Of a stretch of 42,266 bases of DNA, positions 18,789 to 41,350 are shown piece by piece. The position numbers were made by a program, and so were the translations under genes. This DNA comes from Novosphingobium sp. GTDB lineage: Bacteria > Pseudomonadota > Alphaproteobacteria > Sphingomonadales > Sphingomonadaceae. The stretch spans positions 1 to 42,266 of the forward strand of contig JAPLPG010000244.1 of the NCBI GenBank assembly GCA_026400375.1, written 5' to 3'. The number at the start of each line of letters is the position of its first letter. Within the stretch, counting starts at the first letter, position 1. A model generated the notes under the pieces. The model was not told the DNA's origin and did no database searches. It worked only from the letters and a program-made list of their open reading frames with translations.

Positions 18789-19385
18789 ATGTTAGTCATC
18801 GTCCGCCACGGCAACACCTTCACCGCCGGGGAGCCGCCCCGCCGCATCGGCGCACGCACCGACCTGCCGCTGACGGCGCAAGGCATCACCCAGGCCGAGG
18901 CGCTTGGCGCACACTTCGCCAAACTGGGCTGGCACTTTGCCCGCGCCCTCGTCTCCCCGCTCCTGCGCACGCGCCAGACGGCCGAAGCCATCCTCGCCGC
19001 CCAACCCGCGCCGCCTCCCGTACAAAGCGCCGATTTCCTGCGCGAGATCGATCACGGCCCTGACGAGAACCGCACCGAGGCCGAAGTCCTCGCCCGCATC
19101 GGCCAACCCGCCCTCGCCGCATGGGACGAACGCGCCATCGCCCCGCCCGGCTGGACAGTGGGCGCCGACGAACGCCTCGCCGCCTGGCGCGCCTTGATCG
19201 AAGCGCTCGCCCCCGATCAGCCGCCGACCCTCCTCGTCACCAGCAACGGCGCCGCCCGCTTCGCGCTCATCGCCCTGCCCGCGCCCCCTGCGCACACCCT
19301 GAAGCTGCGCACCGGCAGCTATGGCATCATCCGGTGCGACGCGGCGGGATCGCCCGTTGTCGCAGCATGGGACCAGCGCCCGTGA
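18789..19385 (+). CDS. Histidine phosphatase-family protein, atypical second catalytic motif
   Basis: A 198-residue member of the phosphoglycerate-mutase-like superfamily. The phosphohistidine motif VRHGNT is intact (His7), as is Arg60 in SPLLRTRQTAEAI. The second catalytic His, normally in a (V/T)HGG stretch, is replaced: TLLVTSNGAARF has Asn153. It sits 12 bp after kdsB and its stop overlaps the GTG of kpsC (GTGA), so it belongs to the Kdo/capsule operon. Because no kdsC is in the locus, it may dephosphorylate Kdo-8-phosphate, but this is a guess. Alternatives are another sugar phosphatase or a non-catalytic protein. Confidence 0.8.
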   Translation: MLVIVRHGNTFTAGEPPRRIGARTDLPLTAQGITQAEALGAHFAKLGWHFARALVSPLLRTRQTAEAILAAQPAPPPVQSADFLREIDHGPDENRTEAEVLARIGQPALAAWDERAIAPPGWTVGADERLAAWRALIEALAPDQPPTLLVTSNGAARFALIALPAPPAHTLKLRTGSYGIIRCDAAGSPVVAAWDQRP

Positions 19386-20866
19386 CCCCGCCCCCCTTCC
19401 TGCGCGCGCCCCCCTTCCCGCAGCACAATGCCGTCATCACCGCGCCCGCCCAAGGCCGCAGCACCGTGCCGCCCGATGCCATCGCCCTGCTGCGCAGCGC
19501 ACGCGTCGGTGGCGCGTTCTGGGAAAGCGACGACCCCTGGGCCGCCATTGAAAGCGCAGGCAGCGTCACCGCCCACGGCGATGACGAACGGATCGCCATC
19601 GCCACCGTGCTCGGCGCGGCGGTCACCGTCCTGTCCCCGGGGCGATACGGCGCGCCCGGCGATGAACCCGAAGCCCTGCGCACGCGCCTTGCCATAGCGC
19701 TGGCCGCCTGCGACTGCCTTGATCCGTTCACCGGCAAGGCCACCACCTTTGCCGCCACGGTAGACCTGCTGGCGCAGTGGCGGCGCGAGATTGCGGCCAA
19801 TCGCGCCATCGTTGCCGCCAGTGGGATGGCCTGGTGGAAACGGCGCGAAATCCGGCGCTTCCTGTGGGTGCCCGAACGCCGCCTGCACATCGTGCGCAGC
19901 GCCGCCAGCGCCCTGCGCATTGCCCGGCGCCTGGGCGGCAGCGTGGCCGTCTGGCCCTCACGCGTCTCGCCGCAACTGCTGGCCGATGCCGCGGCGCAGC
20001 ACACCGGCATCGTGCGGGTAGAGGATGGCTTCGTCCGCTCGGTCGGGCTGGGCAGCAATCTGGTGCCGCCGTCCTCGGTGGTGGTCGATGCGCGCGGCAT
20101 TCATTTCGATCCGGCCACGCCCAGCGATCTTGAACATATCCTTGCTACCACCCCCTTCGCCCCGGCGCTCACCGCCCGCGCCAGGGCCCTGCGCCAGACC
20201 ATCGTGGCCGCCGGGATCAGCAAGTATGCCGCAGGCCCCGCCGCCGCGCTGCCGCCGCGCCAGCCCGGCCGCAAGCTGGTTCTGGTCCCGGCGCAAGTCG
20301 AAGACGACATGTCGGTCCTTGCCGGCGGCGGCGGCCTCACCTCCAATCTGGAACTGCTGCGCCGCGTCCGGGCGCTGGAACCCGATGCGGAAATCTGGTT
20401 CCGCCCGCACCCCGATGTCGATGCTGGCCATCGCAAGGGCGCGGTTCCCGATGATCAGGCCCTGCGCCACGCCGATCGCATCGTGCGCGGCGGTGGCATG
20501 GCGCCGCTGCTCGATGTGGTCGATGCCGTCCACGTGCTCACCTCGCTGACCGGGTTCGAAGCCCTGATGCGCGGGCGTGCGGTCACCTGCCACGGCACGC
20601 CGTTCTATGCCGGTTGGGGCCTGACGCAGGATCTGGTTCCCCCGCCACCCGGGCGAGGGCGGCAGCTCTCGCTCGATGAACTCGTCGCCGGCGTGCTGAT
20701 CCTCTACCCGCGCTACCTCGATCCGGTCACCGGCCTGCCCTGCCCGCCAGAGGTGCTGGTTGCCCGCATGGCAGGCGCGCAGGCAACGAATCGGCTGGGA
20801 TGGGTGGCGCCCTTGCGCCGCTGGCAGGGCCGGTTCATGGCCAAGGTCAGGGCACGCCTGCGATGA
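19382..20866 (+). CDS. kpsC: KpsC-like Kdo transferase with a single full module
   Basis: A 494-residue protein. Canonical KpsC carries two glycosyltransferase modules that add alternating beta-Kdo residues to the capsule lipid anchor. Here only one is complete (~170-440): VRVEDGFVRSVGLGS (EDG 214-216), VVVDARGIHFDPATPSDLE, LVPAQVEDDMSV, SNLELLRRVRALEPDAEIWF, HPDVDAG (343-349), SLTGFEALMRG and TPFYAGWGLT. It looks most like the C-terminal module of KpsC. The first ~165 residues contain DPFTG (114-118) and WWKRREIRRFL, the linker that normally joins the two modules, preceded by what may be an eroded end of module one. GTG 19382 overlaps the previous stop. It acts at the inner membrane. Confidence 0.85.
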   Translation: MTPPPFLRAPPFPQHNAVITAPAQGRSTVPPDAIALLRSARVGGAFWESDDPWAAIESAGSVTAHGDDERIAIATVLGAAVTVLSPGRYGAPGDEPEALRTRLAIALAACDCLDPFTGKATTFAATVDLLAQWRREIAANRAIVAASGMAWWKRREIRRFLWVPERRLHIVRSAASALRIARRLGGSVAVWPSRVSPQLLADAAAQHTGIVRVEDGFVRSVGLGSNLVPPSSVVVDARGIHFDPATPSDLEHILATTPFAPALTARARALRQTIVAAGISKYAAGPAAALPPRQPGRKLVLVPAQVEDDMSVLAGGGGLTSNLELLRRVRALEPDAEIWFRPHPDVDAGHRKGAVPDDQALRHADRIVRGGGMAPLLDVVDAVHVLTSLTGFEALMRGRAVTCHGTPFYAGWGLTQDLVPPPPGRGRQLSLDELVAGVLILYPRYLDPVTGLPCPPEVLVARMAGAQATNRLGWVAPLRRWQGRFMAKVRARLR

Positions 20867-25349: not shown

Positions 25350-26588
25350 ATGCCTGTCCCAAGCCGCCCCCAGCGCCGCGTCCTCATGCTGCAGGGCCTC
25401 ATGGGCCCCCTCTTCCGCCGCCTCGGCCAGGGTTTGTCAAAAGCCGGCCACAGCGTGTACAAGATCAACTTCAACGGCGGCGACCGCCTCTTCTGGCGCC
25501 TCCCCGGCGGCATCGATTATCGCGGCACACTGGATGAATGGCCGGATGCGCTCGCACGAATCCTTGCGGAAAAGCAGATCACCGACGTCATCCTGTTCGG
25601 CGATTGCCGCGATCACCACATGATCGCGACGAAGGTCTGCCGGGAGTGCGGCATTCCGGTGCACGTCTTTGAAGAGGGTTATATCCGGCCCGATTGGGTG
25701 ACGTTCGAACAGGGCGGCGTCAACGGCCATTCGTCGCTCCCGCGCGATCCTGATTGGTATCGCGCCGAAGCGGCGAAGCTGCCTCCGGCGCCGGAGCACA
25801 AACAGGTGCCATCATCCTTCCGCCGCCGCGCGACCGAGGGGCTGGTCTACAACCTGGCCGACGTGCTGACCCGCTGGCATTATTCCAACTGGAACAACCA
25901 CCGCCCCTGGCACCCGCTGGTCGAAGGCATGGGCTGGTGGCGCAAGCTGCGGCAGCGCAAGGAGCGGGACGCGCAAGCGGGCAGGCTGCTGGTCCGGCTC
26001 GAACAATCGGGACAGCCGTACTTCCTCTTCCCGTTGCAGCTGGATTCGGACGCCCAGATCCGCCTCCACTCCCCGTTCGCCGGCATTGCCGAGGCGATGA
26101 AGGTGGTGATCGGGTCCTTTGCGGCCCACGCCCCGGCAGACACGCGCCTGGTGATCAAGGAGCACCCCCTCGACAACGGCGTGCGCGACTGGGAGCAGAT
26201 CTCCCGCGATCTGGCCACCCGGTTCGATGTTGCCGATCGCATCGATTACCTGCCCAGCGGCGACATCGTGCCGGTGGCGGCACGCTCGCTCGGCATGGTC
26301 ACCATCAACAGCACCAGCGGAACGCTGGGCCTTTCCATGGGCATTCCGGCCGTTGTGCTTGGCACGGCCATCTACGACGTGCCGGGCATTACCGCTCAGG
26401 ACGGGCTGGACGCATTCTGGCGAGCGCCGCCGCAGCCCGACGCGGCAACGTTCGATGCCTTCCGCCGCGTACTCATCGACCGCTGCCTGATCCCGGGCGG
26501 GTTCTTTTCGGAAGAAGCGCTCGATCTGGTCGTCCACGGCGCGATTGCCCGGTTCCAGACCGGGAACCATGGTCAGGCAGGGACGTGA
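25350..26588 (+). CDS. kpsS: KpsS-like capsule Kdo transferase
   Basis: A 412-residue protein of the capsule synthesis/export family shared by KpsS and KpsC. KpsS adds the first Kdo to lyso-phosphatidylglycerol in group 2 capsules. Visible: RRVLMLQGLMGPLFRRLG, DVILFGDCRDHH, VFEEGYIRPDWVTFE (equivalent to the EDG motif of KpsC), FPLQLDSDAQIR, LVIKEHPLDNG and TINSTSGTLGLSMGIPAVVLG. It stands alone on the plus strand and converges with the GT at 26609 (20-bp gap). Together with the one-module KpsC it would build the Kdo linker. Confidence 0.9.
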   Translation: MPVPSRPQRRVLMLQGLMGPLFRRLGQGLSKAGHSVYKINFNGGDRLFWRLPGGIDYRGTLDEWPDALARILAEKQITDVILFGDCRDHHMIATKVCRECGIPVHVFEEGYIRPDWVTFEQGGVNGHSSLPRDPDWYRAEAAKLPPAPEHKQVPSSFRRRATEGLVYNLADVLTRWHYSNWNNHRPWHPLVEGMGWWRKLRQRKERDAQAGRLLVRLEQSGQPYFLFPLQLDSDAQIRLHSPFAGIAEAMKVVIGSFAAHAPADTRLVIKEHPLDNGVRDWEQISRDLATRFDVADRIDYLPSGDIVPVAARSLGMVTINSTSGTLGLSMGIPAVVLGTAIYDVPGITAQDGLDAFWRAPPQPDAATFDAFRRVLIDRCLIPGGFFSEEALDLVVHGAIARFQTGNHGQAGT

Positions 26589-26608: not shown

Positions 26609-27736
26609 TCAGGTCAGGCCCGCTGCGAGCTTCTGATAGACACCTACGGTTTCGGTCACGCATTTTGCCCAGGTATAGGACCCCGCAACCGCCTGGCCTG
26701 ATGCTGCATAGGCCCGCCGCAACGGCTCGTCTTCGAGCATTTCATGCACTGCCTGGGCAAACTGGTCGGCATCCTCGACGTTGACCACGCGGGCCGCGCC
26801 CTTGGTCACCTCGATCAGGGTCTGCGCATCACCGACGATGGTGGGAATGCCGAACGCCATCGCTTCGAGCGGGGGCAAGCCAAACCCTTCGTAAAGCGAC
26901 GGATAGACGAAGAGGCGCGCGCCGCGATACAACGCATCCCGCTCATGATCTGCGACATAGTGCAGAGACCTCAGCCAGCCTGCCTGCCCGGCCTGCGCGA
27001 TCGCTGCATCGAGAGCTTCGGATTTCCACCCCCTGGCCCCGGCGAGAACAAGAGGGATGTTGCGCCGAACCGGTTCGGGCAGCCGGCCATAGGCCGCAAT
27101 CAGCTTGTCGATGCGCTTGCGCGGCTCAAGCGTGCTGACGCACAGGGTGTAATGCCCGGCAGCCAGATCAAGGCCGCCTAGTGTCTCCGACATGCCGGAA
27201 TCGTCGCCGGTTGCCAACGCTCCGGCCGGAGGATTTACGCCAAGTGGAACGTGAAAGACGTGGTCATCCCTGATGCCGAGGACATCGATCACTTCGCGCC
27301 GCACGGTCTCGCTGTCGGTGATCACGCATTGTGCGCGGTCGAGCGAGCTGCGAAAGCGCAATTCGAAATCCCTCACCCGCTCGATCGGATGGGTTTCGGG
27401 GTAGAGCAGCACCGACAGGTCATGCACGGTGATGACGCCCCCCTTGGCCCAGTCGGGGAGGAAGTAGTTCGGCCCGTGCACAATGGCGTTGCGGGCGGTC
27501 AGACGCCCCCGCAGGGAGCTTGCCGCGCGCAGAAACTTGCCGCGCCGATCCTGCCAGCCCGGGGCCAGCATAGGTTCGAAGTCATCGATCCACTGGTTAC
27601 CCCGGAAATATGAAACACGCCCGACCAGATCGATCCGCTGCAGACCGCGCGCCAGTTCTAGGGCGTACCGCCCGATGCCGGTAAGCTGCGGTCCCAGGGC
27701 ATCGACGGAAAACGCGACGTCGAATTGCTCAGGCAT
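26609..27736 (-). CDS. Glycosyltransferase, GT4-type (last gene of the kps operon)
   Basis: A 375-residue GT-B enzyme. It has FSVDALGPQLTGIGRYALEL at the acceptor side, TVHDLSVLLYPETHP, and the donor domain CVSTLEPRKRIDKLIAAYGR, LVLAGARGWKSEALDA and SLYEGFGLPPLEAMAFGIPT with the EX7E motif. The TGIGRYALEL opening is typical of mannosyl/rhamnosyl transferases such as WbpY/WbpZ-type and WbaZ-type enzymes. It overlaps the end of rmd by 8 bp (ATG 27736), which supports use of GDP-rhamnose or GDP-mannose; this is inference from context. Confidence 0.9.
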   Translation of the reverse strand: MPEQFDVAFSVDALGPQLTGIGRYALELARGLQRIDLVGRVSYFRGNQWIDDFEPMLAPGWQDRRGKFLRAASSLRGRLTARNAIVHGPNYFLPDWAKGGVITVHDLSVLLYPETHPIERVRDFELRFRSSLDRAQCVITDSETVRREVIDVLGIRDDHVFHVPLGVNPPAGALATGDDSGMSETLGGLDLAAGHYTLCVSTLEPRKRIDKLIAAYGRLPEPVRRNIPLVLAGARGWKSEALDAAIAQAGQAGWLRSLHYVADHERDALYRGARLFVYPSLYEGFGLPPLEAMAFGIPTIVGDAQTLIEVTKGAARVVNVEDADQFAQAVHEMLEDEPLRRAYAASGQAVAGSYTWAKCVTETVGVYQKLAAGLT

Positions 27737-28628
27737 CCAGCATCCAGGCAAGCGTTTGCGACAGATCGGTCATCACGACGGGGCCGATCACGCTTTCCAC
27801 CCGTGCCTTGCTGCCGGACAGGGTGCGCACTTCGTCCGAACGCACGAATGCCGGATTGACCTGCACCTTCATTTCGTGCCCCGAGATGCGGCCTGCGAGG
27901 TCCAGCACCTCGGCCAGGGTCCGTGCCTCACCGGAACAGATGTTGAAGACGCCGCCGACCGCTTCGGGCGCAGACAACAACCGCGCATACGAATCGACCA
28001 CGTTGCGCACGTCCGAGAAATCGCGGGCAACATCGATGTTGCCAAGCTCGATCACCTCTGCCTTGCGCCGAAGGTGGCCGATGATCTTCGGGATCAGGAA
28101 GTTTTCCGATTGCCCCCGGCCGGTGTAGTTGAACGGCCGCACCGTGATGATCGGCAAGCGATCCGCATAGACCCCGGCCAGCACTTCGCCCGCCACTTTC
28201 GAGACGCCATAGTCGTTGGCCGGCGCCGGCTCCATGTCCTCGGTCAACACGCCCGCGCGCCGGTTGCCATAGACGTTGGCGCTGCTGGCGATCATCACCT
28301 TTGCCGGACTGCCTCCCTGACGCGACAGCGCGTGCAGCAGATTGCGCGTACCGACCACGTTGGACGAATAGAGGTCCGACACATCGCCGTGTGCCACGTT
28401 GGCGATGGCCGCCAGATGCACGACGATTTCCGGCTGCAGATCGGCAACGATTCGCTCCACCGCCGAATGGTCGCGCAGATCCGCGACAACCCGCCCTGCC
28501 AGCGAGTCCGCCGCACCTCCATCGTCGCTGTGGACAAGTCCGAACAGTTCGTGATCGTCCTGCACCAGGCGATCGACGAGGTATCTTCCGGTAAAGCCGT
28601 TCGCGCCGGTAACGAGTACGCGTGCCAT
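27729..28628 (-). CDS. rmd: GDP-6-deoxy-D-mannose (GDP-4-keto-6-deoxymannose) reductase
   Basis: A 299-residue extended SDR. It begins VLVTGANGFTGRYLVDRL, has SSANVYG and the catalytic YGVSK, then RPFNYTGRGQSENFLIPKII, a phrase characteristic of Rmd-type reductases that make GDP-D-rhamnose from the product of Gmd. GDP-L-fucose synthase would be longer and epimerise as well; GDP-6-deoxy-D-talose synthase is a closer alternative that sequence alone cannot fully exclude. It lies directly downstream of gmd (6-bp gap) and overlaps the next glycosyltransferase. The Pseudomonas A-band pathway uses the same gmd-rmd pair. Confidence 0.85.
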   Translation of the reverse strand: MARVLVTGANGFTGRYLVDRLVQDDHELFGLVHSDDGGAADSLAGRVVADLRDHSAVERIVADLQPEIVVHLAAIANVAHGDVSDLYSSNVVGTRNLLHALSRQGGSPAKVMIASSANVYGNRRAGVLTEDMEPAPANDYGVSKVAGEVLAGVYADRLPIITVRPFNYTGRGQSENFLIPKIIGHLRRKAEVIELGNIDVARDFSDVRNVVDSYARLLSAPEAVGGVFNICSGEARTLAEVLDLAGRISGHEMKVQVNPAFVRSDEVRTLSGSKARVESVIGPVVMTDLSQTLAWMLDA

Positions 28629-28634
28629 GGCCGA

Positions 28635-29687
<1,053 letters not shown>

Positions 29688-31031: not shown

Positions 31032-31071
31032 GGCTGAAATCTCCGAAATTGATTTAGCAAAAATCCAGCAC

Positions 31072-33582
31072 TTAAAATATTGTACTTGACCAACGATTTT
31101 CGCAGATGACTTTCGCTATGCTATTAGCTGCGTCTGACCACGTAAAGTCAATTTCTTTCTCTATTCTACTTGCCATTTTCTTATTATTGTTCAACCACTG
31201 ATCTAAACAATCGGATAATTCACTCCCAGAGAAACCTGTGAAATATACAGCATCATCACCTGCAACCTCGCGAAAGACCGGCAGATCTCTTGCGATGATA
31301 GGCACGCCAAGGCGCTGGGCTTCCACAAGCGGCAACCCAAACCCTTCTCCTTCGGACGCAGCGACGAGAGCGTCAGCTGATCGCAGGACTGCAAGTAAGT
31401 CTGCATCGGTCGCTCCTTCAAGCCAAAGCAACCGTCTTCCAAACTCATTATGAGACCTGATTGACTCGACAAGATCATCGCACTGCCAGCCGACTTTGCC
31501 GATGATGACAAGCGAAACGTCATCGCGGCCTTTCCACAGGTTGTTCATCGCATCCACAATCTGATCGTGCCGCTTTCTGGGCTCAATTGTGCCGATCGTC
31601 ACGAACACTCGAGATTTTCGTCGTTTCTCGAGCCACTCGACAATTGCCCTATTCGGCGCTTCTTCAACTTCGCTTTCAATATCAGCGCCAAGCCTGAAAT
31701 GGCCTAGGCGCAGCGGGCGACGCAAAGGCAACTTCGTTTTCTCAGCCCACGCCTGAATATCCATCATTACCGATCGCGAAATTGCAACAAGGCCATCGCT
31801 TCGGGCTACTGTATTGAGCCAGCCGTTGAAATTGCGCGAGACTGCATCTGGAAAATACTCGCGTAACTTCAAAGGAAGCATATCGTAGACGACAAAGTAG
31901 CAAAGAATGCCGGATTCATGCAGCTTTTCGAAGAAATCCGCCCGATGTGGCACCAGAACATCCTGAAGATCCAACCCTAGGAACACATCGCCCCGACGGA
32001 AATTCGGCACGGGGTTTGCAATTGGCGCAAAGTTTGAGATCAATTGAAGTCCAACCTTGTTTGACACACGGTACTCTGTAGTCAAATCCGTTGCCACCGG
32101 CACCACGGCGTATTTCTTGCCCGCTGCCTCCTGCAGGTGCGCAAGTATGTTCCGAACAACGCGCTGAATACCGGTCTTAGAATCGCGCGCGTGAAGTTCC
32201 GAAACGTCCACAAATATCTGGATCGGCTGAGCGTCTTGCGGTAGTGATCTTTCGATTGGACCTATGATGTCTTTGGGCGGCATCAAAGCCGCATCCGGCC
32301 CCAAAAGATCTAAGATATGCTGGACGTGGCGCGCGTGCGCTTGCGCATCACGCGCTCGGCGCGAGCGCGGTCTGATACCTTCGATGACGTCCAGCGCAGC
32401 TTGCGCGGTTCGCTGCCAGGAAAATGCCTGACGGCGGTCTTCTGAATTGGCAATCAGCCGGTCGCGCAAACCCCGATCCAGAAGAGCGGATTCAATCTTG
32501 TCCGCAATGGCATGCGTATCCATCGGATCGAACAGCGCTTCTTCGAGTTTTACGACTTCAGGTATGCTTGAAACGTTGGCAGCAATGACCGGTATGCCGT
32601 AATTCATTGCCTCCAAGATGGGGAGGCCGAACCCCTCGTGAAATGATGGGAACACGAACAGAGTCGCACTTGCATAAATCGCTGCGAGTTCGTCATCACT
32701 GACCCAGCCTGTAAAAATGACCTGCTCGTCATTCAGTCCCACGCTTCGGCTGACAGTGCGTAGCTGGTCGATATGCACTTGTGGCATGCCTCCGGCCAAG
32801 ACAAGCTGGTAAGTCGCCTGAAGGTCAGGCGAGAGCACAGAAAACGCCTCAATAAGCCGTGGCAAATTCTTGCGAGCATCCGACGCCCCGCTATAGAGCA
32901 AATAATTGCTGCCTATAGAAAGCCGATTCAGCACGTTGGCGCATTGCTTTGCGGTTCTAGCGCTCGCACAGAAATCATCACTGACCGCCGTCGAGATGTT
33001 GGTGACAACGCTCTCACTAATATTGAAATATTCTATCGCTTCCGTCTTGGAAGACTCAGAAATCGAAAAAATTGCGTTTGCACGCTTAAGCTGTTCAATC
33101 TTTTCGTAGTACCATTCATGGCTGCGTGCGTCGGCCAGATATTCTTTTTCATATATTGCCGGAATTGCGTCGTAAAAGATCGCACTGGTGAACACATCGT
33201 CGAAGTGCTTGTTGATCGTGATTACTGTCGCGTCATCGCAGCCTTCAACAGCGCTGCTGACCAGCAAAATGTCGGGCTGGATTTCGTGGATCACAGCTTC
33301 TCGAAGATATTCGGAAGCCTTGCGACGGAGATTGTTGCCGACCCAGCGAAATGAAGGATCGCCGAAAGGATACCAGACATGCACGTCTGCTTCGTGGACG
33401 TAGCCAGCGAACATCTTTTTCAAGTCGTCGACATTGTCAAACGCGCCGTTCGCCAGCAGCGAGATGCGGTGACGACCAAGGCTCAATCGGCTCAACTGGT
33501 TTACCAACGCCCGGGTATATCGGCCAATTCCGCGATGTCGGCTGCCATTCTGCGCGCCTTGAATGTCTATAAGGATGTGCAT
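31072..33582 (-). CDS. Glycosyltransferase with two GT4 domains
   Basis: An 836-residue protein made of two GT-B glycosyltransferases. Module one (~1-400) starts ILIDIQGAQNGSRHRGIGRY and has SGASDARKNLPRLIEAF and FHEGFGLPILEAMNYGIPVI. Module two (~445-836) starts IFVDVSELHARDSKTGIQR and has GDVFLGLDL, TIGTIEPRKRHDQIVDAM and EGEGFGLPLVEAQRLGVPII. Both modules keep the EX7E donor motif, so both are probably active, giving two linkages or polymerisation of a repeat. Module two is closely related to the separate GT at 36021. The gene is AT-richer than its neighbours. Its ATG directly follows the stop of the FkbM gene. Confidence 0.9.
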   Translation of the reverse strand: MHILIDIQGAQNGSRHRGIGRYTRALVNQLSRLSLGRHRISLLANGAFDNVDDLKKMFAGYVHEADVHVWYPFGDPSFRWVGNNLRRKASEYLREAVIHEIQPDILLVSSAVEGCDDATVITINKHFDDVFTSAIFYDAIPAIYEKEYLADARSHEWYYEKIEQLKRANAIFSISESSKTEAIEYFNISESVVTNISTAVSDDFCASARTAKQCANVLNRLSIGSNYLLYSGASDARKNLPRLIEAFSVLSPDLQATYQLVLAGGMPQVHIDQLRTVSRSVGLNDEQVIFTGWVSDDELAAIYASATLFVFPSFHEGFGLPILEAMNYGIPVIAANVSSIPEVVKLEEALFDPMDTHAIADKIESALLDRGLRDRLIANSEDRRQAFSWQRTAQAALDVIEGIRPRSRRARDAQAHARHVQHILDLLGPDAALMPPKDIIGPIERSLPQDAQPIQIFVDVSELHARDSKTGIQRVVRNILAHLQEAAGKKYAVVPVATDLTTEYRVSNKVGLQLISNFAPIANPVPNFRRGDVFLGLDLQDVLVPHRADFFEKLHESGILCYFVVYDMLPLKLREYFPDAVSRNFNGWLNTVARSDGLVAISRSVMMDIQAWAEKTKLPLRRPLRLGHFRLGADIESEVEEAPNRAIVEWLEKRRKSRVFVTIGTIEPRKRHDQIVDAMNNLWKGRDDVSLVIIGKVGWQCDDLVESIRSHNEFGRRLLWLEGATDADLLAVLRSADALVAASEGEGFGLPLVEAQRLGVPIIARDLPVFREVAGDDAVYFTGFSGSELSDCLDQWLNNNKKMASRIEKEIDFTWSDAANSIAKVICENRWSSTIF

Positions 33583-36021
33583 TCAACGCCTCGCAAGATA
33601 ATCGGTAACCAGATGTCCGATCTTTGACTGATGATCAGATACCTTTTGGTGGAGATCATTTCCGCCCACGGCGGAATTGCCGAAGTCGGCCCCGCTGATT
33701 TCGGCAGTCCCAACTCTCGCTGCGGCCATCGTCGCTGCCGTAGTCAGCAAGGCTTGCTGACCAGTCGCGATTTGATCCAGCCGCGCGCCAATTTCACGTG
33801 TTGCTCCATAAATCGATGTCTGCATGCTGTTGGCGCGGCCAAGCTCGTTAACGACCATTCGCAATTGTCGTTCCTGAGGGGAATCTCCATCATGGCTGGA
33901 AAAGAGCCGGAGGACCGAGCCGATGATTGGCGTCTTAGCCAGCCTGAAACGGCGGATCGCCCGGTCTAGACCGGCCACACCTGGCACAAAGTTCTGCCCT
34001 TCGTTCGAACGCCGAAGCTGCTTCAGGATTTCCAGCTTGTGCGTGCCCGTGCGCAGGCGCGCAAGGTAATAGGCCCGCCCCTCGGGGTCGGGTTCCCGTC
34101 CCAACACCGCCTGATAGGCGATCTCGATGAATTCGGCATCGTGTGGCGCAAGAAGCGCTGGTACTGTCGTTATCGCACCGTGATCCGCGGCCATCTCAAA
34201 ACCCTTGTCGTTGCTATTCCCCTCTGCCGTCAATCCGGCATCAGCAAGGGGCAATTCCGTCCATTCTGGCGCCAGCGGTGCCGGTGCCGACAGCCCGAGG
34301 CGCCATGCGGTTATGGCTTCGTCGTGCGCCCGCAGGGCCTCTTCAGGCCTGCGCCCGGCCATGCGGGCCAGCGTCGTCGCCAGTTTGCGCGGCCAGCCTG
34401 CCAGCCCGTCCGGCGGCCCCTCAAGCAGTTGCGCGGCGGTTGCCAGCCGGGTTTCGGCGATGACGATCTGCTCGCGAAGTCGATCCGTTTCGGCCTGAAA
34501 CGCCAGGGCCTGCGCCTCGCCTTCAGCAAGAGCCGCCGCGCGCGCCGCATCGGCAGCGGCCCAGGCCTCCTCGCGCCGGGCAACCTCCGTCCGGATCTGC
34601 GCGATCGTGGCGTTAAGCCCGCCGATCTGCGCCTCCCCTTCAGCAAGGGCCGCCCCCCGCGCCGCATCGGCAGCGGCCCAGGCCTCCTCGCGCCGGGCAG
34701 CCTCCGCCCGGATCTGCGCGACCGTGGCGGTCAGACCGGCGATCTGCATGTCGCGGTCGCGAAGTGTCGCGCCAAGCTCCGCCTCGGCGGCCAGCCACGC
34801 GGCGTGGCGCGCTGCCATGTCCGAGCGGGCTTGCGCAATCTCCCCGGTCAGCGCGGTCACGCGGGCCTGCAGCGCTTCGCTCGTCCATTCGGCCTGCGCC
34901 AGTGCGAGGGCATGTTCGCCCGAAAGTGTTGCGGTCTGCACCCGCACATCGGCAAGGCTAGCGCGGGCGGCATCGCGCGCCTCTTCGGCAACGGTGATCC
35001 GGTCTTGCAGTTCGCGGCGCTGGGCAGCCGCGGTCAGCGCCTGGGCCGCAAGATATTCCGCCTGCGCGGCAAGCTGGTCCTCCATCCGGGCCGCGTCGCG
35101 CGACAAGGCGCGTAACTCTTCCAGGCCGGCCTGCTCTGCTGCAGTCGCCTTGGCCAGAGCGACTTCGCGCGCAGCAAGCCTGCCTTCCAGATCGGTGCGG
35201 AGCGCAGCCTCCTGTGCTTCGGCCCGGGCCTGTTGATCGGCAAGGGCCGTCTCAAGCTGCGCTGCCCCCTGCCGGCGGGTCTCTTCGACCTCCGCCACCT
35301 TTTCGGCAGCAACCCTGCCGGCCGAGAAGTGCGAGATCGCCACCTGGAAGCCATCGAAGACGTTGGGCGCGAGCGCCAGCGCCTCACCCCGCCCGGCGTG
35401 CGCCTCGTGAATGAAGTATCGGCTCAGTCCGTCGAACAGCACGTCCCGATAGCCGCGTGACAGCACCAGATCGTACCACGCATGATGCGCAGGGATCTGG
35501 GTCGAAGGGGCGGTCGCCTCGATCACCAGCGCGGCAGGCCGCGCCGGATGATCGCCCCAGCTTCGCAGGACGTCGGCTTCCATGCCTTCGACGTCAACCT
35601 TCAGCCAGTGGATCGGATCCTTGCCGGCCATGTCGAGAACGGCTGCCAAAGTGACGGTCGGCACCCAAATTTCCTGATGCTGCCAGCCGCTTTCCTTGTG
35701 GCGATCAGCCAGTTGGGTGACGCCCGTGGACAGGCCCGTCCCGGAAATCTCGAAGAACGAGATCGGCCCAGGGTCGGTCGAGACCGCGGCCTGTATCACG
35801 ATTTCGTCGGGACGCGCCTCGCGCAGAGCCTCGGCATAGGTCGGCGTGGCTTCAACGTGGACGCCGCGCCATCCGGCCCGGTAAAACGCAAGGCTTACCG
35901 AATCCTGCACCGGGTCCTGTGCGCCGATGTCGATATAGCGGCCTTGCGCGATGTCCGAAAATGCACGCCACAGCCTGACATCCTCGAAATTCTGCGCAAA
36001 GCTGACAAAGGGCTCGTTCAT
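33583..36021 (-). CDS. FkbM methyltransferase-coiled coil-DUF4214 protein (possible chain capper/ruler)
   Basis: An 812-residue protein with three parts. Residues ~1-215 are an FkbM-family SAM methyltransferase (YIDIGAQDP 29-37, VHVEATP, KVDVEGMEADVLRSWG 141-156). Residues ~236-530 are a long Ala/Glu/Arg/Gln-rich coiled coil including two 39-residue tandem repeats. Residues ~628-680 match DUF4214 (FIEIAYQAVLGREPDPEGR, YYLARLRTG), found in many surface-glycan proteins. The ~100-residue tail has another amphipathic stretch. A methyltransferase tied to a long coiled coil, next to kpsMT, recalls WbdD, which caps and measures an O-antigen chain; WbdD's methyltransferase and kinase are different, so this is analogy only. 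ATG overlaps the stop of the preceding GT. Confidence 0.85.
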   Translation of the reverse strand: MNEPFVSFAQNFEDVRLWRAFSDIAQGRYIDIGAQDPVQDSVSLAFYRAGWRGVHVEATPTYAEALREARPDEIVIQAAVSTDPGPISFFEISGTGLSTGVTQLADRHKESGWQHQEIWVPTVTLAAVLDMAGKDPIHWLKVDVEGMEADVLRSWGDHPARPAALVIEATAPSTQIPAHHAWYDLVLSRGYRDVLFDGLSRYFIHEAHAGRGEALALAPNVFDGFQVAISHFSAGRVAAEKVAEVEETRRQGAAQLETALADQQARAEAQEAALRTDLEGRLAAREVALAKATAAEQAGLEELRALSRDAARMEDQLAAQAEYLAAQALTAAAQRRELQDRITVAEEARDAARASLADVRVQTATLSGEHALALAQAEWTSEALQARVTALTGEIAQARSDMAARHAAWLAAEAELGATLRDRDMQIAGLTATVAQIRAEAARREEAWAAADAARGAALAEGEAQIGGLNATIAQIRTEVARREEAWAAADAARAAALAEGEAQALAFQAETDRLREQIVIAETRLATAAQLLEGPPDGLAGWPRKLATTLARMAGRRPEEALRAHDEAITAWRLGLSAPAPLAPEWTELPLADAGLTAEGNSNDKGFEMAADHGAITTVPALLAPHDAEFIEIAYQAVLGREPDPEGRAYYLARLRTGTHKLEILKQLRRSNEGQNFVPGVAGLDRAIRRFRLAKTPIIGSVLRLFSSHDGDSPQERQLRMVVNELGRANSMQTSIYGATREIGARLDQIATGQQALLTTAATMAAARVGTAEISGADFGNSAVGGNDLHQKVSDHQSKIGHLVTDYLARR
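34510..34743 (-). repeat. Two tandem 117-bp repeats encoding 39-residue coiled-coil units
   Basis: The two copies encode residues 427-465 and 466-504 of the FkbM/coiled-coil protein. They share AARREEAWAAADAARGAALA or near-identical residues and differ at only a handful of positions. The period is 117 bp (for example GGCCTCCTCGCG at 34564 and 34681). An in-frame repeat like this can expand or contract by recombination without breaking the frame. Confidence 0.85.
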
Positions 36022-37289
36022 CAGGAGGCATTCCGTGGATCGGGTTCGAGACCGAGATGGGCCAGGATCATTGCACCACTGGTTTCCCAGCGAGGCAACG
36101 TGGAAATCATCTCACTGGTCGGAATCCGCGGATTTGCCAGCCATTGGCGGACCGATTGGCCAAGAGCAGCCGGTGCATCGTCATCGAAGTAATCAAACAG
36201 GTCTCCGCCAACTTCGCGGAAGACAGGAATGTCACGCGCAAGAACCGGCATGCCGTGCGCCAGCGCTTCGATCAGCGGCAGCCCGAAACCCTCGGCAAGC
36301 GAGGCACCGACAAGACCTGCACACTCGCGATAAAGCCCGGACAGGACATCGTCGCTGGCCTGCTCGATCCACATCAGTCGTTTGCCGAATTCGGGATGCG
36401 TCCGGATCTGCTGCTGCAGCGACTCGGTCTTCCAGCCCGCACGCCCGACGATGACCAGGGCGATGTTTCCGTCGGGTTCGGCCTGCCACAAGTGGTCGAA
36501 CGCGGCCAGCAGGTGGTCATGGCCCTTGCGCGGCTCGATCGTGCCGACGGCAAGCGCCGTGCGCCACCCGCGAACCCAGGCGATCAGATCGGGGAAATCG
36601 CCCGGGACGCCCTTGCTGGGAAAACTCGCAGCCAGATCCGCCCCGAGTGGCGTGGTCACGATTGCCGGCGGCGACTTCGCCCCGAAAGCATCGAGATGCC
36701 GTGCCAGGTCCTGCGCTGTTGCATTGGAAATGCACAGGCAGCGATCGGCCCGACGCGCGAGTACCCTGAACCAGCGCCGGAAATTCCGGCCGAGCCGCCG
36801 GGAGAACCAGGCGGGATGGCTCAACGGGAGGAGATCATAGACCATGATGTTGATCGAGACGCCCGCCCGTTGCCATTGGCGCAGGCGACCTTCGAGCAGG
36901 GGCAGCGTGTGGGCGGCCAGATCGAGACCGAGAAACACATCGCCTTGCGCCACCGCGACGGGCTGCAACCCGTCCTTGCGGCTGGCCGCATTGATGACAC
37001 GTCCATCGGGGGTAAACGCTGCCTTGCAGAAACCATGATTGCGCGTGGCAAACACCGGCTGCACGATCACGCCGGCAAGTCTCTCTGCAACCAGTTGCCC
37101 CAGGATCGCGCGGACCACCCGCTGTATCCCGGTGCGGACATCGGCCCTGACGATCGTCGACACGTCTACCAGCAGCTGGCGCCTGCCGGGATGGTCGGTA
37201 CGTTCGAAATGGTACTTGTGCGAATGCAGCCGGCGGCGCAGCGATCCTGTCAACGAGGCTGGTGAGGGCGGCAACACGGCGGCCGTCAC
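36021..37289 (-). CDS. Glycosyltransferase, GT4-type, related to the second module of the 31072 gene
   Basis: A 422-residue GT-B enzyme. It has LLVDVSTIVRADVRTGIQR, GDVFLGLDLAAHTLPLLEG and MVYDLLPLSHPAWFSRR on the acceptor side, then AVGTIEPRKGHDHLLAAFDH, LVIVGRAGWKTESLQQQI and SLAEGFGLPLIEALAHGMPV on the donor side (EX7E intact). Shared phrases (TGIQRVVR, GDVFLGLDL, YDxLPL, GTIEPRK) show close kinship with residues ~445-836 of the tandem enzyme. The GTG start overlaps the kpsT stop, so translation is coupled to the transporter. It is probably a chain-extending or adaptor transferase. Confidence 0.9.
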   Translation of the reverse strand: MTAAVLPPSPASLTGSLRRRLHSHKYHFERTDHPGRRQLLVDVSTIVRADVRTGIQRVVRAILGQLVAERLAGVIVQPVFATRNHGFCKAAFTPDGRVINAASRKDGLQPVAVAQGDVFLGLDLAAHTLPLLEGRLRQWQRAGVSINIMVYDLLPLSHPAWFSRRLGRNFRRWFRVLARRADRCLCISNATAQDLARHLDAFGAKSPPAIVTTPLGADLAASFPSKGVPGDFPDLIAWVRGWRTALAVGTIEPRKGHDHLLAAFDHLWQAEPDGNIALVIVGRAGWKTESLQQQIRTHPEFGKRLMWIEQASDDVLSGLYRECAGLVGASLAEGFGLPLIEALAHGMPVLARDIPVFREVGGDLFDYFDDDAPAALGQSVRQWLANPRIPTSEMISTLPRWETSGAMILAHLGLEPDPRNAS

Positions 37290-37939
37290 TTCATCGATGC
37301 GGAATAGACGTCGTAGGCTTCATCGACTGAATCGAAATGCCAGAGCACGCCCTTGAGCAGCACGGCGGCGCGCTGGCAATGCTCGCGGATGTAGCCTGCA
37401 TCGTGGGAAACGATGATCTTGGCTCTGTCGGACCGCTTTTCGAACAATTCCTCGTGGCACTTTGTCTGAAAGCGGCTGTCCCCGACGGCCACGATCTCGT
37501 CGATGAGATAGCAATCGAATTCGACCACCATCGAGCTGGCAAAGGCAAGCCGGGCGCGCATGCCGGAAGAATAGGTGCGCACAGGCTCGTGCAGGTATTT
37601 GCCCAGTTCGGTGAATGCCTCGACGTAGGGCATGCTCGCGTCAGGATCGACACCGTAGATGCGGCAGATGAAGCGGACATTGTCTGCCCCGGTCAGGGCC
37701 GACTGGAAGCCGCCCGCAAAGGCGAGAGGCCATGAAATGCTCATGGTCTGCGTGACGGTGCCCTGGTCCGGCTGCTCCACCCCGCCGATGATACGCAGCA
37801 GCGTGGATTTGCCAGCACCGTTGCGCCCGAGTATCCCGATGGAATCGCCGCGATCGACTTTCAGATCGACGTTTTCGAGGATCTGGCTTGGCCCGGACGA
37901 CGTGGCGTAGGCTTTGCGGACCCCTTGGAGCGCGATCAT
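37286..37939 (-). CDS. kpsT: Capsule ABC transporter ATP-binding protein
   Basis: A 217-residue ATPase, the normal KpsT length. Walker A is GRNGAGKST (38-46), the signature is YSSGMRARLAFA (123-134), Walker B CYLIDE (143-148) and the switch His is in VSHD (177-180). There is no extra C-terminal domain of the Wzt carbohydrate-binding kind, so export should not depend on transporter recognition of a chain cap, unlike E. coli O9a. The ATG overlaps the kpsM stop (ATGA). With KpsM it moves the lipid-linked polysaccharide across the inner membrane. Confidence 0.94.
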   Translation of the reverse strand: MIALQGVRKAYATSSGPSQILENVDLKVDRGDSIGILGRNGAGKSTLLRIIGGVEQPDQGTVTQTMSISWPLAFAGGFQSALTGADNVRFICRIYGVDPDASMPYVEAFTELGKYLHEPVRTYSSGMRARLAFASSMVVEFDCYLIDEIVAVGDSRFQTKCHEELFEKRSDRAKIIVSHDAGYIREHCQRAAVLLKGVLWHFDSVDEAYDVYSASMK

Positions 37940-38724
37940 TCGGGGCGCACTTCGCGCGATACGACGCGCAGCCGGAGCAGGCCGGCCACGGTAAGACCGG
38001 CGTTCCATAAAGCCATGTAGCCAATGTCGTAATGGGCGCGGATGGCGGAGCCGAAATATCCCTCGCGCAGCAATTCCACGCCGTGGACCATTGGGAGAAA
38101 CAACGCATATTCCTGTGCAGCGGTCGGCAGACCATCGACCAGGAACGCTGCGCCCGACAGGGGAAACAGGATGTAGGCAGCAGGGTGCCAGAACTTTTCG
38201 ACGAGTTCGCTGCTGGCTGACAGCGCCCCGAGAAAGATCGCCAGCGAAGCGCCGAACCACGACAGCATGACCCATCCAAGCGCCACTTTCACGGCGTCTT
38301 CAGGGGGTTTGAGCCATTCGAGACCCCAGAAGAACAGGACCAGGACAACGAACGAGATCGTCGTGCCGACCGCTTCGAGCAGGATGCGCGACAGGAACAC
38401 GTCGATCAGGCGGACATTGCGGTGATGCAGCAGCGGCAGGTTCGGCTCTATCGCCGAAATGCAGCGGGACGGCATCGAACGCCACAGCAGCACGCTGGAA
38501 TACCCGGTGATGGCAAAGGCCACGATCGGTATGGCAGACAGGTGATGCGCGCCCGACAGCGACCACAACGTGGTAACGCCCAGCGTGAACAGCATCGGCT
38601 CGGCGAAAAGCCACAGGAAGCCGATGTTGTGGCGGCCATAGCGGGTGAGGATTTCGCGCATCAACAATGCGCCGATCACGCGGCGCTGGATTATCCAGGA
38701 GTTGGCGAGCGAGTCTTGCATCAT
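37936..38724 (-). CDS. kpsM: Capsule ABC transporter permease
   Basis: A ~262-residue ABC-2-type permease with about six membrane spans. The N-terminal SWIIQRRVIGALLMREILTR with RYGRHNIGFLWLFAEPMLF is typical of KpsM/Wzm proteins, followed by FAITGYSSVLLWRS, SFVVLVLFFWGLEWL and HPAAYILFPLSGAAFLVDGLP. The start is one of two adjacent ATGs (38724 or 38721); 38724 overlaps the kpsE stop in an ATGA. It is the membrane partner of KpsT. Confidence 0.94.
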   Translation of the reverse strand: MMQDSLANSWIIQRRVIGALLMREILTRYGRHNIGFLWLFAEPMLFTLGVTTLWSLSGAHHLSAIPIVAFAITGYSSVLLWRSMPSRCISAIEPNLPLLHHRNVRLIDVFLSRILLEAVGTTISFVVLVLFFWGLEWLKPPEDAVKVALGWVMLSWFGASLAIFLGALSASSELVEKFWHPAAYILFPLSGAAFLVDGLPTAAQEYALFLPMVHGVELLREGYFGSAIRAHYDIGYMALWNAGLTVAGLLRLRVVSREVRPE

Positions 38725-39920
38725 CAGGCGCGGTGTTCGCGTACGCCTGCCAGCAGCATCACCAGAATGGCCCATGCCACAAGGCTGACGACGAGCGTGG
38801 CCAGCACGCCGCGCAGCCGCCGCGGCTCCATCGCCTTGTCCGGCTTGCTGGGTTCGGCAATGCGTTCGACATAGGCGCGCTGACGGCGGGCTTCATTCTT
38901 GGCGTCCTGCAACGCGGCGAGCGACGCGCCCAGCTGCTTGTCGGAAAATTCGCGCTGCAGCTGCAGGCGCTGGAACTTTACCGCCGTCGCCGAAAGCGAA
39001 CGCGAGTTGCCGGCGACCTCGCCAAGCTGTTCGTCGATCGCCTTCTTCAGCCCATCGATGCGGAGGCGGAGCGTGGGGATCTGCGGGTTCTGCCCACCGA
39101 TGGCCGACATCTGCAGCAGTTGCATGCGGGCGCCGATCAGTTCGTCCTGCAGCTTGGAGATCATCTGCAACTGCACCGTCGCCTGACGCTCGGGATCGAT
39201 CACGCCCACCTGGTTGCGATAGGCAGCGAGCGCCTCGGCGGCAGCGCGCGACTGGACCTGTGCCTCGTCCACTTCGCGCTGGGCGTTGCGCACCATGTCG
39301 GACTGGCCACGGTCGTTCAGCTGGTTGACGAGGCCTTCGGCCTGTTCGAGCAGGCGGCGGTTGATCTGCTGCGAAGCCTGGGGATCGAACGCCTTGACGG
39401 TCAAGGTCGTGATGCCGGTTTCGCTGTCGAACTTAATCGCGACCTTTTCCTCGTAATAGCGGTACAGCTCTTCGAACGATCCCGACCAGCCCATCGGATC
39501 GAAGCGATTGAAGATCGAAATCGAAGGCGCGCTCCACGCGCGGCGGGCAAAGCCATCGCGGTCGAGCGATTGGAGGGCATCGCGTGACTGGATGTACCCC
39601 TGTGCAGCGCGAACCTCGTCGCTGGCGGTGCTGAATCCGGCCGAGGCGAGGACAACGCCAAGGCCCGTCCGTGCCGGACGATCGGGGCTGCGGACGACGA
39701 AGCGGCTTTCCGAAATGTAGACGTCGGACACCAGGATGCCGAAATAGACCGTGCTGATTGCCGTGGGCAGGAGGACCACGAACCAGAACAACGGCCCGAG
39801 CTTGCGCAGCTTGCGGGCCATGGCGGCAAACACCCCTGCGGGCCGAGCCGACGAGGACGACAGCGGATCGTTCAGGATCACCTGGTCCGTATGGTGAACT
39901 GCTTCAATTCCTTGCGACAC
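38724..39920 (-). CDS. kpsE: Capsule export inner-membrane protein, KpsE/PCP-3 family
   Basis: A 398-residue polysaccharide co-polymerase-like protein. One membrane helix near the N-terminus (LFWFVVLLPTAISTVYFGIL, ~44-63) and one near the C-terminus (LATLVVSLVAWAILVMLLAG) enclose a large periplasmic region with coiled coils. YISESRFVVRSPDRP just after the first helix and NPQIPTLRLRIDGLKKAI are typical of KpsE/CtrB/BexC. It bridges KpsMT and KpsD across the periplasm. The start is GTG 39920, with no obvious ribosome site. The 169-bp gap to kpsD upstream holds no recognised gene; an internal promoter is possible. Confidence 0.92.
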   Translation of the reverse strand: MSQGIEAVHHTDQVILNDPLSSSSARPAGVFAAMARKLRKLGPLFWFVVLLPTAISTVYFGILVSDVYISESRFVVRSPDRPARTGLGVVLASAGFSTASDEVRAAQGYIQSRDALQSLDRDGFARRAWSAPSISIFNRFDPMGWSGSFEELYRYYEEKVAIKFDSETGITTLTVKAFDPQASQQINRRLLEQAEGLVNQLNDRGQSDMVRNAQREVDEAQVQSRAAAEALAAYRNQVGVIDPERQATVQLQMISKLQDELIGARMQLLQMSAIGGQNPQIPTLRLRIDGLKKAIDEQLGEVAGNSRSLSATAVKFQRLQLQREFSDKQLGASLAALQDAKNEARRQRAYVERIAEPSKPDKAMEPRRLRGVLATLVVSLVAWAILVMLLAGVREHRA

Positions 39921-40089: not shown

Positions 40090-41265
40090 TCAATTCTGCT
40101 GGATGACGGAGGTCACCGTGGCGACCGGCAGAATGGTCTGCGACACAATCCCGACAAAGCGTTGCAGTTCCGCCGTCGGCGAATTGGTGACGTAGATGAT
40201 GTCCCGGTCGCTCATCCTGAACTGTTGCGCCAGGAAATAGACCGCCGGATCCTTCAGGTCGAAGCTGTAGATGACCGGAACGCGCGGGCCGCCGGGAACT
40301 TCGGGATCTTCCCAGCGAAACAGGAACACGCCGCGCGGATTGGCCCGGCCATCCTGCAGGCCGCCGAACCGGCCGAGGGCCTGGGCCAGGGTGATGCCGA
40401 AAGCTTCGAACCGGATTTCGTCATTGCGCCCGGCAGCGCCGAGCACGGTGAAGCTGTAGGGCTGGTACAGCGCGGTGACGACATCGTCGCTGGCGAGGAC
40501 GACATTGTTTTCGGTACGTTCGATGATGTCCGACATCGCCATGCGATAGCTGCGGCCGCCGCGCGTGACCTGGATCGTCGTCAGGTTCACCGGAGCCTTC
40601 ACCCCGCCGACTTGCGCCAGCGCATCCAGCAGCCGTTCGCCGCGAGGGCTGAGCGGCAACCGCGCCGACTGATTGACTTCGCCGACCACGGTCACCGTCG
40701 ACGTGGCGTTGCGCACGAGACGTGCCGTTACCTGCGGGGCATTGGCCCGCCCGCGCAGACGGCGCGTGATGTCTGCCTCGATCTCGCGCAGGGAGCGGCC
40801 GGTGGCCGGCACCAGCCCGGCAAACGGCACCGGAATGACGCCGTCCTTGCCGACGAGCAATTCGGGAAGCGTGGTCGGCCGCGCCGTGCTGATGGCCGAA
40901 CCGATGCGGGTATCGGCTGCACCGGCGCCGAACAGGATCGCAGGCGGCGCCTCCCAGATCGTCACTTCAAGCGCATCGCCCGTGCCGACGACCGTGCCCA
41001 CCGGCCTTGCACCTGACAGGACATCGGCAAAGGCGGGCCAGGGTTCCGGCGTCTTCAGCTTCGTGGCCATGGCACCGCTGACTTCGACGACCTTGATGCT
41101 GCTGGCCGGCTGATCCGGCCCTGCCGGGACCGCTCCGGCATTGAGTATCGCGTTCCTGCCAGGCCCGTAGGGGTTGCACGCTGCCAACATGACCATTCCG
41201 GCGAGCGGCAGCACGCGGATTGAACGGAAGCGCAACCGCTGCGCGGGGGATCGGCAATCAGACAT
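40090..41265 (-). CDS. kpsD: Outer-membrane polysaccharide export lipoprotein, KpsD/Wza-like
   Basis: A 391-residue protein. The start at 41265 gives a lipoprotein signal with VLPLAGMVMLAAC (Cys30). The Poly_export domain has VVGTGDALEVTIWEAPP, LLVGKDGVIPVPFAGLVPA and SLREIEADITRRL; SLBB-like segments follow (VTVVGEVNQSARLPLSPRGE, SFTVLGAAGRNDEIRF, LAQALGRFGGLQDGRANPRG). It should form the outer-membrane outlet of the capsule machine. It is the first gene after a strong promoter at 41351-41379 and probably heads the ~14.7-kb operon ending at 26609. Confidence 0.92.
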   Translation of the reverse strand: MSDCRSPAQRLRFRSIRVLPLAGMVMLAACNPYGPGRNAILNAGAVPAGPDQPASSIKVVEVSGAMATKLKTPEPWPAFADVLSGARPVGTVVGTGDALEVTIWEAPPAILFGAGAADTRIGSAISTARPTTLPELLVGKDGVIPVPFAGLVPATGRSLREIEADITRRLRGRANAPQVTARLVRNATSTVTVVGEVNQSARLPLSPRGERLLDALAQVGGVKAPVNLTTIQVTRGGRSYRMAMSDIIERTENNVVLASDDVVTALYQPYSFTVLGAAGRNDEIRFEAFGITLAQALGRFGGLQDGRANPRGVFLFRWEDPEVPGGPRVPVIYSFDLKDPAVYFLAQQFRMSDRDIIYVTNSPTAELQRFVGIVSQTILPVATVTSVIQQN

Positions 41266-41350
41266 AGAGGGGCTTCTTATACAATCTCGGGCAAGCGCCC
41301 GCAGCGACACAACGCACAAAAGGCAGCGACCGGGCCGGTAACGGTGGCGC

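Follow-up and report, generated by a model that had tools for sequence, protein, structure and literature searches.

A candidate chain terminator and length ruler in a Novosphingobium capsule locus: an FkbM methyltransferase joined by a coiled coil to DUF4214

WbdD of Escherichia coli O9a/O8 and Klebsiella O3/O5 consists of an N-terminal methyltransferase, a long coiled coil and a C-terminal region, and its loci combine a large polymerase gene with a glycan exported by an ATP-binding cassette (ABC) transporter (PMC3482155, PMC5082667, PMC11231755). The Klebsiella O12 protein WbbB and the terminators ORF6-O7 and ORF7-O4 also have a coiled coil with the terminating enzyme at its distal end; polymerase modules of the O12 and O7 proteins follow C-terminally in the same chain (PMC11231755). 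A comparable layout, again next to a large polymerase gene and an ABC exporter, is found in P0001, a protein encoded in a stretch of 42,266 nucleotides from Novosphingobium sp. (contig JAPLPG010000244.1; hereafter, the window), in which an FkbM methyltransferase is followed by a long coiled-coil rod and a DUF4214 domain. We propose, with a probability of roughly 0.6, that P0001 acts as both chain terminator and length ruler for an ABC-exported, D-rhamnose-containing capsule linked through 3-deoxy-D-manno-oct-2-ulosonic acid (Kdo).

P0001 would in all likelihood work like a WbdD-type terminator with a ruler, yet it is no WbdD: Pfam assigns it to FkbM and finds no kinase, it has no sequence match in the PDB, and its exporter has no cap-reading domain. 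It is further set apart by a rod about twice as long, by its C-terminal DUF4214 and by an exporter of the Kdo-linked capsule type. Among the other Klebsiella terminators, those of O12 and O4 have a Kdo transferase as head, and that of O7 has a methyltransferase-kinase together with an additional domain resembling a carbohydrate-binding module; none is an FkbM enzyme, and none of the three proteins is described with DUF4214 in the available excerpts of that work. With the short FkbM methyltransferases (PF05050), P0001 shares the catalytic domain but not the rod and DUF4214. The Wzm/Wzt exporter of Aquifex aeolicus is of the type found beside many FkbM-rod relatives of P0001, whereas the KpsT of the window lacks its reader. 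In Aquifex, the O antigen is a D-rhamnose/mannose polymer whose 3-O-methyl cap is recognized by the C-terminal domain of Wzt, attachment of the cap is described as ending elongation, and an analogous 3-O-methyl cap is said to occur on the D-rhamnose polymer of Campylobacter fetus B (PMC9445017).

The literature search, outside of which most subscription journals lay, found neither an FkbM-coiled-coil terminator nor a report joining DUF4214 with FkbM. In the available parts of the sources, FkbM beside O-antigen, rhamnose and ABC transporter genes amounts to gene-list mentions, and it is absent among the matches listed for coiled coil, glycosyltransferase and chain length. A tie of the family to the polysaccharide of Burkholderia multivorans C1576 or to Bep was considered and rejected: the water-insoluble polysaccharide of H111 contains galactose, glucose and mannose, the Bep cluster paper names neither FkbM nor a methyltransferase, and for B. 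multivorans ATCC 17616 no more than a single GMD gene is reported.

Architecture of P0001

The protein and its parts are as follows (TRF, Tandem Repeats Finder; pLDDT, predicted local distance difference test).

33583..36021, minus strand: P0001, FkbM-coiled coil-DUF4214 protein of 812 residues, proposed chain terminator with ruler (open reading frame, Pfam, NCBIfam, AlphaFold2)
35332..36021, minus strand: FkbM methyltransferase head, residues 1-230 (PF05050, 9.3e-23; high pLDDT)
34423..35328, minus strand: coiled-coil rod, residues 232-533 (AlphaFold2 helices; 3.56-residue periodicity of large hydrophobics)
34510..34747, minus strand: in-frame tandem duplication of 117 bp, or 39 residues, inside the rod (TRF, 2.0 copies, 90% match, 0% indels)
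33991..34164, minus strand: DUF4214 domain, about residues 620-677 (Pfam, 3.2e-11; helical in the model)
33586..33951, minus strand: C-terminal tail, residues 691-812, with P0002/P0005-like codon use from about residue 710 (codon use)

The order methyltransferase, coiled coil, DUF4214, read from the letters alone in a first-pass annotation, is recovered on this open reading frame (ORF) by Pfam, NCBIfam and AlphaFold2. Pfam places Methyltransf_21/FkbM at residues 31-192 (E 9.3e-23) and DUF4214 at 627-677 (E 3.2e-11), while NCBIfam returns fkbM_fam and, beyond that, solely SMC-like coiled coil (224-526 and 242-533). The FkbM cut-offs are exceeded (81.6 bits vs 22.7 for PF05050; 57.3 vs 37.7 for TIGR01444). 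The earlier assignment to a methyltransferase family other than that of WbdD is supported, a PDB sequence search having given no match at E up to 1. Foldseek gave none at E ≤0.001, its best listed matches being mostly class I methyltransferases. The head is predicted to be an FkbM-family enzyme that transfers methyl to a sugar hydroxyl. In the source genome, a 338-contig assembly that is 80.67% complete, there is a single FkbM match and a single DUF4214 match, both in P0001.

In the AlphaFold2 model, built from an 18-sequence alignment, the FkbM domain (about 5-230) is confident and is followed by rod helices at 232-365 and 371-533, with 297 helical residues within a 302-residue span; the model is a monomer, and the rod has a modest pLDDT of about 56-78 per block. 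After the rod come a poorly ordered linker, a compact helical DUF4214 at about 620-677 and C-terminal helices at 685-695, 698-707, 715-771 and 787-811. The longest proline-free stretch past residue 225 runs from 226 to 535, and the large hydrophobic residues (ILMVFYW) of 232-533 recur every 3.56 residues, between the heptad (3.50) and the hendecad (3.67), a periodicity matched by 0 of 200 shuffles. With alanine left out, all 20 DUF4214 members show such periodicity at p ≤0.05. The extended rod that had been expected is thus borne out by the predicted helices and the periodicity, whereas the bounds first proposed (215-560) were slightly too wide; the rod spans 232-533, including the 117-bp duplication.

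An α-helix rises by 0.15 nm per residue, at which the rod would be about 45 nm long. The earlier description of a coiled coil comparable to that of WbdD holds as to a long rod and understates its size, the WbdD coiled coil measuring about 20 nm (PMC5082667).

Relatives, exporters and rod length

Relatives of P0001 are encoded on 539 stretches of a GTDB contig collection; the counts below are taken from the best 80 of these 539 (L numbers denote loci) and describe the closest relatives of P0001, not the family at large. Within the order, a search of 296 genomes with P0001 as query (E 0.001) matched 24; among the frames read, six, its own included, hold the FkbM-rod-DUF4214 fusion, and eight other FkbM matches lie in frames of 238-323 residues, too short for rod and DUF4214. 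Of the 80 named relatives, 19 (19 of 76 scanned by Pfam) have a fused DUF4214 and 61 do not; the 19 fusions belong to Alpha-, Beta- and Gammaproteobacteria and one myxobacterial metagenome-assembled genome. These fusions sit in polysaccharide loci, in agreement with the first-pass annotation: a glycosyltransferase (GT) is a neighbor in 18 of 19, starts within 600 bp downstream in 15 and shares the chain in three, and gmd with rmd is found in 15, a KpsT-like gene in 13 and a KpsM-KpsT pair in 10, absences being soft since several loci are cut by contig ends.

The exporter could be scored in 57 of the 80 loci, after leaving out five truncated by a contig edge and 18 that lack a Wzt/KpsT, by the residues that follow the ATPase domain (at least 100, long Wzt; fewer than 60, short or KpsT type). 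All 10 scorable DUF4214 loci have the short type, while 34 of the 47 without a fused DUF4214 have a long Wzt and 13 do not (Fisher p 2.6e-5, a statistic that ignores relatedness); five of these 13 (L047, L049, L071, L076, L081) either are truncated by a contig end or encode DUF4214 in an ORF of its own. Pfam finds Wzt_C in seven of the eight long Wzts tested and in neither of two KpsT proteins. Rod length, approximated by the longest proline-free stretch after residue 215, has a median of 279 (151-519, n=19) with DUF4214 vs 97 (16-385, n=61) without it (p 1.9e-9). A tie of rod length to exporter type as such was rejected, there being no difference (p 0.25). It is DUF4214, not rod length alone, that goes with exporter type.

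In 19 of the 61 loci without a fused DUF4214, the FkbM gene comes immediately after a long Wzt (gap -53 to +16 bases); 17 of the 19 have a GT as the next gene downstream. Locked in this way between a Wzt of the cap-reading type and a large GT, the FkbM gene is a natural candidate for the cap maker. A second class I methyltransferase, sought with a local profile, is absent in 13 of 19 Wzt-linked and 14 of 19 DUF4214 loci. Among 78 other ORFs of seven Wzt-linked loci, no methyltransferase occurs in the 25 most frequent of 77 Pfam families; the local profile picks out one of the 78 (L083:19297-20031). GT domains are present in 11 of 81 FkbM proteins, always C-terminal to FkbM as in the O12 and O7 terminators, and lie beyond the longest proline-free stretch in 10, overlapping it in L125.

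The rod itself changes length in a regular manner. Tandem arrays, counted from a unit of at least 18 bp, are present in 23 of 81 genes, with units of 7, 11, 14, 21, 22, 28, 39 and 90 residues, plus 117 (a multiple of 39), and with 0% indels save in L091 (1%) and L096 (4%). All unit lengths are sums of heptads and hendecads (39 = 28+11), which is trivial for 90 and 117. The 39-residue array of P0001 (2.0 copies) recurs in the distant L072 (L072:9998-11821, a Rhizobiales genome) with 5.0-5.9 copies; the rod of L056:9992-13066 (Methylobacter) is made of 90-residue units, 4.3 copies. In close pairs (at least 88% identity in FkbM; end gaps free), five of seven differ internally through rod indels alone: by 14 residues in the Advenella pair L078/L084, 7 in L093/L102, 22 in L103/L111, 7 in L113/L116 and 14+14 in the Hyphomonas pair L074/L095. 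The only internal difference within L097/L122 is one residue near position 359, beyond the main rod; the contig-cut pair L046/L047 has no internal indel. L111/L139 are near-identical without indel, and L103/L139 repeats the 22-residue case; L091/L147, at 79% identity, differ by 22, 16 and 17 residues. At greater distances, where rod alignments are unreliable, indels are numerous and of every size. Between close relatives, the rod lengthens and shortens in steps that keep the helical register.

Several other features of the family were noted. A motif at the rod end, roughly [ST]x[ST]W[RK][ILV][TS]xPxR, occurs in 42 of 4751 ORFs (at least 80 residues, six frames, 80 loci), all of them FkbM-rod proteins; an example is the SxSWRxTxPLR-like sequence near residue 370 of L103:9992-11461. 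In L049, L061, L071, L076 and L077, DUF4214 is encoded by a separate ORF that starts inside the end of the FkbM ORF or within about 135 bases after it; in four of these (L049, L071, L076, L077) the proline-free stretches are short, and split genes, frameshifts and errors are alike possible. A single origin of the DUF4214 architecture was rejected: an FkbM tree built from 80 out of 84 rows (the other four had no start motif on which to trim) requires 12 label changes, an overestimate because some rows labeled as without DUF4214 are contig-cut or split genes, and starred branches force three. Plasmid-borne proteins of Pseudomonas and Pseudorhizobium (L126:8998-10452, L127:8893-10284, L129:6938-8434) have an N-terminus resembling the DUF4214-tail part and, C-terminal to it, a class I methyltransferase of another kind; they sit near an ABC ATPase, which in L126 has Wzt_C, and in this set Pfam scored DUF4214 in P0010 and, at 1e-5, not in P0009. 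The docking part appears to bear different heads in these proteins. In a DUF4214-type capsule locus, the 552-residue L087:15330-16988 has Wzt_C (5.9e-10) without an ABC ATPase domain and is possibly a separate cap reader.

The capsule locus and the C-terminal tail

Around P0001, the window holds the following genes.

40090..41319, minus strand: outer-membrane export protein, KpsD/Wza type (Poly_export and SLBB domains)
38724..39920, minus strand: KpsE-position protein (position; 66-67% identity to the L046 and L048 counterparts; no Pfam family over cut-off)
37936..38775, minus strand: KpsM-like permease (PF01061, 7.1e-14; NF050053, 8.7e-30, under the curated cut-off)
37286..37939, minus strand: KpsT-like ATPase, 217 residues from the start at 37939, without a C-terminal cap-binding domain
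36021..37289, minus strand: P0003, GT4 (Pfam)
31072..33582, minus strand: P0002, 836 residues, two GT4 domains, presumed polymerase, beginning at the base that follows the P0001 stop codon
29703..31031, minus strand: P0005, class I methyltransferase with a beta-rich C-terminal part
28635..29687, minus strand: gmd, GDP-mannose 4,6-dehydratase (TIGR01472, 1e-140, over cut-off)
27729..28628, minus strand: rmd-type epimerase/reductase, 4-reductase type (PF01370, 5.7e-44; name from gene order and inference)
26609..27751, minus strand: GT4 (PF00534, 1.3e-28)
25350..26588, plus strand: KpsS-like Kdo transferase (PF05159, 9.8e-79; NF050054, 1.9e-82, below cut-off)
19121..20866, plus strand: KpsC-like protein with two Capsule_synth stretches (PF05159, 2.2e-40)
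17922..18776, plus strand: kdsB-type cytidylyltransferase (PF02348, 5.3e-33)
16940..17947, plus strand: kdsD-type SIS-CBS protein (PF01380, 4e-24, and PF00571)

Minus-strand transcription runs from the export protein through the KpsE-position gene, KpsM, KpsT, P0003, P0001, P0002, P0005, gmd and the rmd-type gene to the last GT4; the kdsD-, kdsB-, KpsC- and KpsS-like genes lie on the plus strand. Pfam cut-offs are passed by the permease, the ATPase, Capsule_synth (two genes), SIS/CBS, CTP_transf_3 and Poly_export, and the NCBIfam equivalog cut-offs for KpsM and KpsS are not reached in the window. Judged by gene content, this is a Kdo-linked, ABC-exported (group 2 type) capsule locus making GDP-D-rhamnose. 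Of the earlier reading, the ABC-export operon is upheld, as are the rhamnose genes (gmd and the 4-reductase-type epimerase) and the lack of a cap-binding domain in KpsT, which has no C-terminal extension. Wzt_C was found in none of the window proteins scanned. The beta-rich C-terminal part of P0005 has no Pfam family over cut-off and a model of mean pLDDT 54; P0005 as a substitute cap reader with a Wzt_C-like domain was rejected at an hhalign probability of 1.3% (0.5% in a second comparison).

The G+C content of P0002 (0.516) and P0005 (0.476) stands against 0.60-0.72 in 16 other locus genes measured, and the low-GC segment (29703-33900) apparently has its border inside the C-terminal part of P0001. 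Codon use becomes P0002-like at about residue 710 (suffix log-likelihood ratio 16.7, shuffle p 0.0015; the highest of 12 control genes, P0003, reaches 6.4). Compared with L046 and with L048 of Sandarakinorhabdus cyanobacteriorum TH057, P0001 is 68-74% identical in FkbM and 68-73% in DUF4214, falls to 34-40% over residues 691-740 and has no match in the tail (736-812). P0002 reaches a best match of 39-40% over part of its length, in L048 not to the neighboring polymerase, gmd is 87-88% identical, and P0005 has no full-length counterpart there. From the codon-use switch and the drop in identity along P0001, tail and polymerase seem to travel together. The simplest reading would be a cassette exchange with its border inside the C-terminus of the ruler, the tail arriving with its polymerase; the alternative is a loose tail that evolves fast.

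Proposed function, alternatives and meaning

In the proposed mechanism, DUF4214 and the tail would anchor P0001 to the membrane and to P0002, the presumed GT4 polymerase, presumably by docking, while the rod would keep the FkbM head tens of nanometers off, where only a sufficiently grown chain would reach it. FkbM would then methylate the non-reducing terminal sugar, growth would end, and chain length would be set by the rod. The cap would restrict length rather than license export, since KpsT is without a domain to read it. Least secure in this scheme are where the methyl group goes and what rod length does, both of which we infer. The context supports a capping ruler through its anatomy, the operon, the conserved pairing with large GTs, the Wzt placement of the relatives, the register-keeping length changes and a tail that resembles the polymerase gene in codon use and divergence. 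Capping is made more plausible by relatives whose gene comes right behind that of a Wzt with a domain of the cap-binding type and by single chains of FkbM, rod and GT; in this respect the first-pass annotation, which had suggested convergence on a capping ruler, is partly supported, its terminal methylation, growth stop and length setting staying conditional.

A number of observations weigh against this proposal. The export link of O9a is missing here, as KpsT cannot read a cap, and the capsule of Haemophilus influenzae b is ABC-exported with no terminator according to the available part of PMC11231755. In most of the relatives that lack DUF4214 the rod is short (median 97 by the proxy), P0001 lacks the rod-end motif, and in two-genus searches L143/L144 and L149/L150 (L149 cut) show no rod change. 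When alanine (29% of residues 216-560) is counted as hydrophobic, the periodicity of P0001 is gone (p 0.66 overall, 0.94 in the coiled-coil band; p 0.80 in a second heptad test), and the hydrophobic moment points to a membrane helix after DUF4214 in two of 20 members at p ≤0.05 (P0001, p 0.12). Another methyltransferase is present in six of 19 Wzt-linked and five of 19 DUF4214 loci, and the window has P0005. The literature search found no polymer structure or enzyme assay for any family member. In the rhamno-mannan of B. multivorans, half of the 2-linked rhamnose carries an internal 3-O-methyl group (PMC8481691), so that a methyl group on a polymer of this sort is not necessarily a cap.

This last observation also favors the main rival explanation, which we consider unlikely, namely that FkbM methylates rhamnose along the chain, rod and DUF4214 serve as a tether, and length is set elsewhere. 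The lack of a cap reader in KpsT and the pairing of the DUF4214 type with exporters needing no cap (10 of 10) are in keeping with such internal decoration, but the closest relatives outside the DUF4214 type are encoded immediately after a Wzt whose C-terminal domain is of the cap-binding type, and a tether has no obvious need of a rod of 150-519 residues or of register-keeping changes. A purely structural role, in which rod and DUF4214 assemble or oligomerize a glycosyltransferase complex and methyltransferase activity is secondary or lost, would fit the description of Klebsiella coiled-coil proteins as membrane-associated scaffolds for complex assembly (PMC11231755) and the five loci with DUF4214 as a separate ORF beside FkbM. 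It is rendered improbable by an alignment of 18 fusions in which the 55 invariant columns fall nearly all within FkbM while the rod is free to vary. Least probable of all is that the terminal methyl is added by P0005, a class I methyltransferase of the same operon with a beta-rich C-terminal part, and that P0001 has a different target: P0005-type genes are rare (three matches among the ORFs of the 80 loci; at 1e-20, five genomes, its own included, out of 296 in the order), and P0005 has no rod, has a C-terminal part unlike Wzt_C and lies in the low-GC segment.

Returning to the terminator and ruler proposed for P0001, we suggest more tentatively, as a generalization that may well fail, that KpsM/KpsT capsules without cap recognition also own a dedicated ruler, in which an FkbM head that adds a methyl cap is carried by a rod stepping in register (7, 11, 14, 22, 28 or 39 residues) and docked by DUF4214 and a polymerase-matched tail. 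The family is a concrete candidate factor for capsule chain length, and close relatives that differ in rod units alone make the ruler idea testable without building anything. If the proposal is true, sister species differing solely in rod units would be ready-made ruler tests; the idea would become testable beyond the O antigens of E. coli and Klebsiella, and DUF4214 would gain a testable role.

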